A DNA stretch of 64,000 nucleotides from NCBI RefSeq assembly GCF_014284195.1, contig NZ_JACOGC010000001.1:310001-374000 (forward strand), written 5' to 3'. Every line of letters begins with the position of its first letter. The first letter of the stretch is position 1. Below the pieces are notes generated by a model, which saw only the letters and a program-made list of their open reading frames with translations, made no database searches and was not told the origin of the DNA. Source of the stretch: Cognatundibacterium griseum (GTDB taxonomy: Bacteria; Pseudomonadota; Gammaproteobacteria; Burkholderiales; Burkholderiaceae_D). A program made the position numbers and the translations under genes. Shown piece by piece: positions 31,908 to 33,657 of this stretch.

Positions 31908-32103
31908 CTAGCGCCTGGCTACCAGCATAGTCAAAAACGCTTTCACTTCAGGTGCGGCCAAGTCTCTGGGATGGCGCAATCCAGGATCAGCGTATGGAAA
32001 ATCAGATCCAATAGAGATACAGTTTTTCAGTCGATAAGCTGTCATGCTGATAACGCCAACGTTCACGCACCTGATCCGGCAAACGCGGTTTTTGAGGGAT
32101 GAT
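31908..32103 (-). pseudogene. Remnant of an integron integrase (IntI-type tyrosine recombinase), N-terminal fragment
   Basis: Read on the minus strand from about 32100, one frame gives PRLPDQVRERWRYQHD followed by SLSTEKLYLYWI, then a TGA. After a frame change it gives LRHPRDLAAPEVKAFLTML and stops at 31908. These are consecutive pieces of the SAM-like N-terminal DNA-binding domain of integron integrases (families usually read DQVRERIRYKHYSLRTE and RHPRDMGAAEVEAFL). The catalytic domain with its R-H-R-Y residues is absent. The remnant points away from the cassettes, the normal intI orientation. It cannot be functional. Confidence 0.8.
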
Positions 32104-32242
32104 GTTTTTATTTTATTTTTTATACTGCATGAATTATCAGTTTCAAAAATGTAGTCAATGTTCATGCGGTTTTCAAGGGGCTTTGAGCATGTTGACTGTT
32201 TGATCATTGATGGTTAATGTTGCAAAATGAAAATTAAAACAC

Positions 32243-32249
32243 GTTAGGC
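32243..32249 (+). repeat. attI-like integron recombination core site GTTAGGC
   Basis: GTTAGGC matches the integron core consensus GTTRRRY. It lies between the divergent integrase remnant and the first cassette gene, about 140 bp from the remnant's 5' end, where attI is expected. The first cassette gene starts 8 bp further on. Confidence 0.65.
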
Positions 32250-32257
32250 CTCAAAAA

Positions 32258-32761
32258 ATGCCATTTCCTACCGCCATAGTAGCTCGGCTCATATCGACTT
32301 ACGAAGAACTCATGTGGCTAGCCAATCGGCCTCATGTCACTCCTCAACAAGCACGTGCTTGGTATTCGCAGGTGATCGCGATTCCATTAGCACCGAAGGT
32401 CCGACGATTCACTGGAATGGTTTCGCGCAAAGCAATTGAAAACATTCACGAAAGGCTAGTCCTGGAGCATTACAACAGGCTCTCGCATTCACTCTCTCGG
32501 CTGATCGAGACGCACGTTGAGCAACAAATCAACGATCCGACGCCATTCCTCGCGCTGATTGAGCAGTGTGAGCAGGTCAACATCACAACCGATGAAGAGA
32601 ATCATCGGGTTCAGGAGGCAGCCGGTGACTACAACGCGGCCAATATCCAGCTGGTCGAATGGGAGAGTTTGTCGACCCAAGATAGAGCATTCCTCTGGCA
32701 AAAAAAGCTCAGAGGGAAGGTCAGTAATGCTTCCGACTATGCTCCGCGACCTGAGGCCTAA
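32258..32761 (+). CDS. Integron cassette 1 protein, unknown function
   Basis: A 167-residue cytoplasmic protein, largely helical and charged, with no signal peptide or membrane segment (begins MPFPTAIVARLISTYEELMW). No family is recognised. It fills the first cassette: the start is only 8 bp after the attI-like core, with no clear ribosome site (typical of cassette genes), and its stop lies inside the attC site. Expression would have relied on an integron promoter upstream, which is hard to identify in the decayed region. Confidence 0.7.
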   Translation: MPFPTAIVARLISTYEELMWLANRPHVTPQQARAWYSQVIAIPLAPKVRRFTGMVSRKAIENIHERLVLEHYNRLSHSLSRLIETHVEQQINDPTPFLALIEQCEQVNITTDEENHRVQEAAGDYNAANIQLVEWESLSTQDRAFLWQKKLRGKVSNASDYAPRPEA

Positions 32762-32824
32762 TCAGTCGCTCGAGTCGACTCACGTCGGCAAGCTGCCGCT
32801 CGCGGCTCAGCTTCAACGTTAAGC
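32756..32824 (+). repeat. attC site of cassette 1
   Basis: The site is 69 bp, bounded by GCCTAAT (R'', 32756-32762) and GTTAAGC (R', 32818-32824, matching GTTRRRY). Inner boxes GCTCGAG (L'', 32768-32774) and CTCAGC (L', 32806-32811) pair with one extra base in L'', the extrahelical base that integrases use for strand choice. The structure is complete enough to have been active. Confidence 0.78.
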
Positions 32825-32834
32825 CCCGACACCC

Positions 32835-33527
32835 ATGGAAAGCTCAGCCGATCAAATCAAGCAGAACAACATCGCTCTAATGGGGGGCGATCTTGGCGCA
32901 ATCTACAGCGAGCTATGGCAAGAAGTTGGCCGCATGTACAGCAACTGGCAAGAATACGTATCTCTGTACGGGACAAATCCCGGACGTATAGCTCTGCTCA
33001 ACAATACCGCAGGACACTTCTTTCGCACCGTTCAAGATGGCCTATGGGAAAGGACACTACTTCACCTTTCTAGAATAACTGATCCGGCACAACAAGGGAA
33101 AAAGAGAAATTTGTCAATACATAGCCTTACTGATGCGATATCTGACATAGAACTTAAATCGAAAGTCACCGCTAGTATTGCGCGCGCGTCGGAAAAGTGT
33201 GCATTCGCACGGGACTGGCGCAACAGATTCATTGCCCATGCTGACTTTGACCTCGCCTTAGATGACTCAGCAAAGCCGTTGGCAACTGCATCTCGCCTGC
33301 AAGTACGCGAGGCGCTAGAAGCAATAGAAGAGGTGCTGAACACCGTATCCATGGCGTTTCATAATTCAGCGACGCGATTCAGCGACATGGCAATATTGAA
33401 CTCGGGCGAAGATTTGATATACCTCCTCGAATTTGCCCTCCGCAAGAAAGAAGAGCAAGAAGGACGCATAACGTCTGGTCAATACACGGAGGAAGACCTT
33501 GCAGATCTTCACCCACGCTCCATCTAA
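32835..33527 (+). CDS. Integron cassette 2: AbiU2-like HEPN-domain protein (putative phage defence)
   Basis: A 230-residue soluble protein. The pattern LWQEVGRMYSNWQEYVSLYG, then HFFRTVQDGLWERTLLHLSR, ITDP, and FARDWRNRFIAHADFDLAL closely follows the HEPN/AbiU2-like family linked to abortive infection. Arg129 and His135 (R-N-R-F-I-A-H) form the R-x(4-6)-H motif of HEPN ribonucleases. The likely role is RNA cleavage during phage infection; this is inferred from the family. It sits between two attC sites as a mobile cassette, 10 bp after the first. Confidence 0.75.
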   Translation: MESSADQIKQNNIALMGGDLGAIYSELWQEVGRMYSNWQEYVSLYGTNPGRIALLNNTAGHFFRTVQDGLWERTLLHLSRITDPAQQGKKRNLSIHSLTDAISDIELKSKVTASIARASEKCAFARDWRNRFIAHADFDLALDDSAKPLATASRLQVREALEAIEEVLNTVSMAFHNSATRFSDMAILNSGEDLIYLLEFALRKKEEQEGRITSGQYTEEDLADLHPRSI

Positions 33528-33538
33528 TTTCAAAAATG

Positions 33539-33657
33539 ACCTAACTGGTTGATCAAGCGGACGCCAACACAGGCCATGCTTTCGGCATTTTCATGACCTG
33601 TGTTGGTGCCCTACGCACCTTCGGTGCTCCGGCGCCGCTTACCTTGCGGCGTAAGGC
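33539..33657 (+). repeat. attC site of cassette 2 (degenerate 3' core)
   Basis: A 119-bp site starting with ACCTAAC (R'', 33539-33545). AAGCGGACGCC (33555-33565) pairs with GGCGCCGCTT (33631-33640) with one extrahelical A, the expected L''/L' stem. The central part forms two more hairpins: CCAACACAGG (33564-33573) with CCTGTGTTGG (33597-33606), and GCACC/GGTGC. The terminal core reads GTAAGGC (33651-33657) instead of GTTRRRY, so recombination may be impaired. Confidence 0.75.

Follow-up and report, generated by a model that had tools for sequence, protein, structure and literature searches.

In the usual description, an integron comprises a single integrase, a single attI site and a single cassette array. 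The locus studied here raises the question of whether a platform that has lost its integrase gene (intI) can still change its cassettes. It occupies positions 31908-33657 of the window, by which we mean the whole 64,000-nucleotide stretch of DNA that was analysed (on contig C10 of a 3.6-Mb Undibacterium genome, G000), and consists of an intI remnant, an attI and two cassettes with attC sites, downstream of icmF and its terminator. A sequence-only reading had described a decayed chromosomal integron with two cassettes and an integrase remnant, in the order intI fragment, attI, cassettes, and had called it a frozen relic. The remnant, the attI and both attC sites were all found, in that order; the freezing was not borne out. 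It is an integrase-amputated chromosomal integron platform, and we consider it fairly probable that its cassettes were exchanged once the local intI had been truncated, the likely agent being an integron integrase supplied in trans.

Composition of the platform downstream of icmF

The features of the platform, with what each rests on, are the following.

31908..32112, minus strand: IntI N-terminal remnant, residues 2-68, one frameshift, without the catalytic part (tblastn, shuffle control)
32192..32220, plus strand: candidate cassette promoter, TTGACT / 17 bp / TAATGT (read from the sequence and its copies)
32187..32252, plus strand: attI, core GTTAGGC at 32243-32249 (model match E 1.2e-17, the window being among the training rows; same site in L035)
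32258..32761, plus strand: cassette 1 gene, 167 aa, without known family (family searches; 29 relatives)
32756..32824, plus strand: attC of cassette 1 (relatives behind other genes; fold z -1.0)
32835..33527, plus strand: cassette 2 gene, 230 aa, HEPN_AbiU2 family (PF18734 E 2.8e-28; 54 relatives)
33539..33657, plus strand: attC of cassette 2, its last core GTAAGGC being the right border common to G016 (fold, relatives, comparison with G016)

Family libraries were blind to the intI stub: a Pfam search assigned no family to its 99-aa ORF, NCBIfam gave a single weak match to an unrelated entry, and the TIGR02249 profile reached only E 0.287 here, with no match above the family cut-off in the window's genome. 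IntI proteins of the genus were needed as tblastn queries, and with these residues 2-53 aligned to 32112-31957 and residues 45-68 to 31982-31911, in two minus frames (E 1.7e-17). The remnant scored 63.9 bits, whereas 200 dinucleotide shuffles reached 28.1 at most. The proposed frameshifted N-terminal IntI fragment on the minus strand is thereby confirmed; the comparison with IntI in the minus frames that had been suggested as a check succeeded with the genus proteins and failed with the profile. In eight aligned genus IntIs (reference length 329 aa), the invariant R145, H276/R279, H302 and Y311, which we take to be the catalytic residues, all fall beyond residue 68, so that the catalytic half of the integrase is indeed gone. 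Where an integron has a functional intI beside its attI, the window holds residues 2-68 only, frameshifted.

The attI core lies approximately 140 bp from the intI start, the spacing also seen in the intact integrons of the genus, and its flanking sequence matches the attI adjoining an intact intI in the same genus (L035). The attI-like GTTAGGC core of the earlier reading thus stands, and together with the model match this match makes the site an attI by its sequence. A TTGAC-17-TAAT arrangement is conserved among the copies and marks a candidate promoter, Pc, that may read into the cassettes; a consensus promoter scan nonetheless reports nothing at Pc.

Both cassettes end in an attC with relatives behind other genes. 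The cassette 1 gene starts 8 bp past the attI core and ends within its attC, which folds weakly (33 of 200 shuffles were as good). Copies of this attC nevertheless stand behind a 162-aa ORF in a Roseateles integron contig (94% identical) and behind a 126-aa ORF in a Methyloversatilis integron contig (82%), and because of these homologues we accept the site as real despite the unconvincing generic fold; pairing its L boxes by hand leaves one extrahelical base, as had been described. The second attC, which follows the HEPN_AbiU2 gene, is borne out by its fold as well (33540-33657, z -3.7) and has relatives behind other genes in Hydrogenophaga (90.5%) and U. baiyunense (88.5%); its last core reads GTAAGGC, not GTT. 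An Rfam search gave no match at gathering scores. Searched against plasmids, either cassette protein has relatives below 60% identity only. Separately, the cassette 1 protein belongs to an identical cluster from 49 contigs, the longest of 26,618 bp, and its relatives lie mostly on short contigs.

The icmF locus and other shared platforms in related species

A platform stands behind icmF in four Undibacterium genomes, namely G000 (the window), G012, G016 and G002, whereas the stretch downstream of icmF in 20 further genomes of the genus gave an intI match or any of three attI types in none. G000, G012 and G016 share one joint where the icmF terminator meets the intI stub, as seen with the loci L029 and L031; at the icmF locus of G002 the stub is reduced to a 32-bp leader match, and tblastn found no IntI. 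Behind the attI, the cassettes differ in all six pairs among the four genomes: the 1200 bp that follow do not match, and none of eight proteins taken from the four platforms matches a protein of another platform. G012 has the attI followed by a 189-aa gene, an attC, a second 189-aa gene and an attC, and G016 has genes of 300 and 318 aa with an attC after each, as judged by eye. The window and G016 become homologous again exactly at CGTAAGGC, the last attC core. The Hydrogenophaga gene that precedes the relative of the window's second attC is itself related, at 61%, to cassette 2 of the platform in G016. The window and L029 have the same attI type with different cassettes, and in L031 and L106 the attI leader differs along with the cassettes.

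Since the truncation predates the split of the three species, the simple reading is that the cassettes changed after it, and such a change calls for an integrase from elsewhere. The course of events may then have been a local cut of intI, inheritance of the truncation joint by three species, and an integron integrase acting in trans, one that has since been lost here or that resides in other strains or on mobile DNA, with the attI remaining in use and the cassettes changing after intI loss. Both the trans-acting integrase and the continued use of attI are what we infer from these comparisons. At E<=1e-40, TIGR02249 matches nothing in any of the four genomes; across the genus, 12 of 43 genomes have a match above the IntI cut-off, including G035.

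Conservation within the platform points in a similar direction. Across six copies from the clade of the window, variation is absent from 17 of the 19 attI columns past the candidate -10 but from just 74 of 143 upstream (p 0.0012); mean pairwise identity drops from 0.935 in the 3' part of attI to 0.833 in the intI stub and to 0.761 in the leader. Columns 32244-32250 are invariant at just three of seven positions; the cassette supplies whatever follows the crossover G, and variation is therefore to be expected there. A promoter or 5' leader under selection could show a similar constraint.

Other loci repeat the pattern. The sister species G016 and G002 share three further platforms with flanks 89-93% identical and different inserts; at one of them the two sequences become alike again no more than 8 bp from the last attC core, and the G002 copies (L251, L252, L253) have no intI match. 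An attI lies between a dehydrogenase gene and an SMR-type gene in G000, G012 and G002, and G036 and G030 have the dehydrogenase flank in common with other first genes. We counted two attI sites as an orthologous pair when they came from different genomes and their left flanks agreed at 85% identity or more across 1 kb or more; the resulting 19 pairs overlap and are not independent. Three of them (L046/L105, L238/L242, L240/L243) keep the first cassette and 16 do not, a later piece being common in four of the 16.

Explanations that dispense with an integrase acting after the truncation have to be weighed against this record. Under the frozen relic of the earlier reading, the integron decayed once and its cassettes were inherited unchanged, or related species sorted different remains of one old array. 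The truncated and frameshifted intI, the mutated last attC core and the three platform pairs in other genomes that keep the same cassette all suit that account, as does the usual identity of arrays among Xanthomonas strains with the same intI deletion, according to the available part of PMC12444791. However, three species in which intI is cut at one and the same joint differ in their cassettes at this locus, and conservation is higher in the attI than in the dead intI adjoining it; moreover, the window's attI-cassette junction is exact at the core, whereas random deletion, had it sorted the array, should have left scars. A lone relic is also contradicted by the many attI sites in the genus, a recurrence in related genomes that the earlier reading had missed. 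We hold a frozen relic to be distinctly improbable.

Only a little less doubtful is an exchange of blocks by homologous recombination, in which attI leader and cassette pieces would be swapped, among platforms or strains, through homology of the intI stub and flanks with no need of a local integrase. Recombination between attI and attC does not by itself explain the leader differences in L031 and L106, a point against our preferred reading, and L251 likewise has a different leader; in L031 and L251 the attI type changes along with the cassettes. The joint change of leader and cassettes in L031, L106 and L251 favours exchange of larger blocks in some cases. A direct repeat of about 110 bp around some platforms and the cassettes of the three conserved pairs, 98-100% alike within flanks 94-96% alike, speak for the same process. 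Against it, the likeness of the window and G016 resumes exactly at the attC core, the window and L029 keep their attI type and yet differ in cassettes, the repeat is without a match in the window, and the differing cassettes still had to be assembled by an integrase somewhere. Exchange in trans after the truncation remains our preferred reading. Further points against it are the three pairs that keep their first cassette, the bare 32-bp leader match of the G002 stub, the possible promoter or leader origin of the attI constraint and the negative promoter scan at Pc.

Scattered attI sites in Undibacterium and beyond

We built an attI sequence model (R1) from 31 sites and applied it at E<=1e-4; the counts that follow include the training sites. 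It found 80 attI sites in 23 of the 43 Undibacterium genomes, with at least two in 18. Full-length IntI is absent from 12 of these 18. One of the 12, G035, has its copy interrupted, and two others, G024 and G027, have assemblies 70-73% complete from which intI may be missing. An intI match lies within 1300 bp at 14 of 64 attI sites, three of them full-length, and is absent at the other 50; at 51 of the 64, an ORF of at least 60 aa starts within 60 bp (a count made without a control set). An in-house attC scan at a score of at least 13 gave 32 matches in 242,533 bases downstream of the 64 attIs and 11 in 232,698 control bases; the scan has moderate specificity and misses both window attCs at score 13, and its single calls were not used. 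Three genomes (G018, G029, G036) have a full IntI with a window-type attI in cis plus at least two such attIs elsewhere. A second attI type occurs at 11 places in G002 and two in the window's genome.

The scattered sites have no one fixed left edge, a candidate that we rejected: the five other sites of G036 begin at -92 to -231, and those of G018 at -68 (four of six) or -149 (two of six). The repeat of about 110 bp has partly palindromic ends and lies in direct orientation around several platforms (L032 6930-7060, L030, L040, L107, L253, L254, L260); it could help platforms to move by homologous recombination. Three tandem attIs with different genes between them were seen in L039 (5618, 6996, 9005) and in L235 (5043, 7426, 10300), and by eye a RAYT-like transposase gene lies between two of those in L039.

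The scatter extends beyond the genus. In the wider family, at E<=1e-3, 16 of 155 genomes have an attI match, and eight of the 16 are Undibacterium. Two genomes of other genera of the family have many window-type attIs (10 sites in G078, seven in G165), and at the seven places in G078 and one in G165 that were read there is no IntI match, except one of 29% identity in L283. In Methyloversatilis universalis EHg5, which had been chosen to serve as a control, an intact IntI stands with its attI. The genome has three more attI-like copies, with an ORF 23-37 bp further on in every case and no intI match in the 8-kb stretch read. We therefore rejected the idea that the pattern is peculiar to Undibacterium: EHg5, with its four attI-like places, failed as a control, and the pattern is wider than the genus. 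The extra EHg5 copies lie at L273 3586-3743, L274 3781-3938 and L275 3903-3959.

How the scattered sites arose is a separate question. They may be the remains of several complete integrons, each of which lost its intI, rather than a self-spreading attI, a proposal that we put just short of even. It accords with intI remnants of varied length beside several copies, with a site at a wecG-like gene that is complete in G036 and truncated in G032, and with an intI survey in which, as far as the available part of PMC2426708 goes, about a third were pseudogenes and some were intragenomic duplicates. It fits less well with the 50 of 64 sites lacking an intI match within 1300 bp, with three attIs in tandem in L039 and L235, and with the tendency of attI subtypes to group by genome. 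Whatever their origin, we tentatively propose, as a possibility and not as our expectation, a distributed integron in Undibacterium and some other Betaproteobacteria: one integrase, whether resident, lost or visiting, would serve many scattered promoter-attI docking sites, captured genes would enter many expressed first positions rather than a single array, and sites would outlive their own intI.

Relation to known integron systems and to cassette cargo

The following comparisons draw on those parts of the cited sources that were available. In Xanthomonas, intI lies downstream of ilvD in nearly all genomes and is often truncated (PMC12444791). Such a sedentary chromosomal integron resembles the platform in its intI, its attI, its attC cassettes and the truncation of intI; there, the same intI defect usually goes with identical arrays, whereas here one joint in three species goes with different cassettes, and attI stands at many loci. 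According to PMC12444791, a functional IntI may mobilise CALINs, attC clusters that have no integrase, in trans, and with two attC sites and no neighbouring integrase the window has the at least two attCs that define one; it differs in keeping an attI and an intI stub at its head. The delta-attI-type cassettes of class 1 and 2 integrons also have attI outside its usual place and attI-gene-attI arrangements (PMC12901181). In those, however, a partial attI replaces the downstream attC, whereas the attIs described here are whole and precede genes at many places in the chromosome, and in the window both genes end in an attC with the attI upstream. Inactive intI, sometimes arising through intragenomic duplication, is likewise known from pseudogenes and duplicated pseudo-integrons; PMC2426708, in the part available, treats integrase genes, and dispersed attI sites with cassettes are the feature seen here. 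Among open-licence papers searched by title and the start of the abstract, no description of dispersed attI platforms was found, which is weak evidence of novelty.

If an integrase does serve these sites in trans, genes could be captured and expressed at many chromosomal loci, and loss of the local integrase would not freeze a platform. Searches that rely on intI or on attC clusters would then miss many such sites. The arrangement lends itself to a direct test: whether IntI acts on a remote attI no less readily than on the one beside it.

Phage-defence genes are among the cargo that integron cassettes can carry. Cargo families named for defence or immunity comprise HEPN_AbiU2 in the window and an AAA_21/AbiEii-type ATPase, SUKH and FRG elsewhere, and several expressed entry points could be useful for such cargo. 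The window's genome has a weak 53-bp attI-like match at C14:331977-332029 (L276) and, at C10:71473-71642 (L040), an attI-like site that has an intI stub and whose cargo is an AAA ATPase gene (AAA_21).
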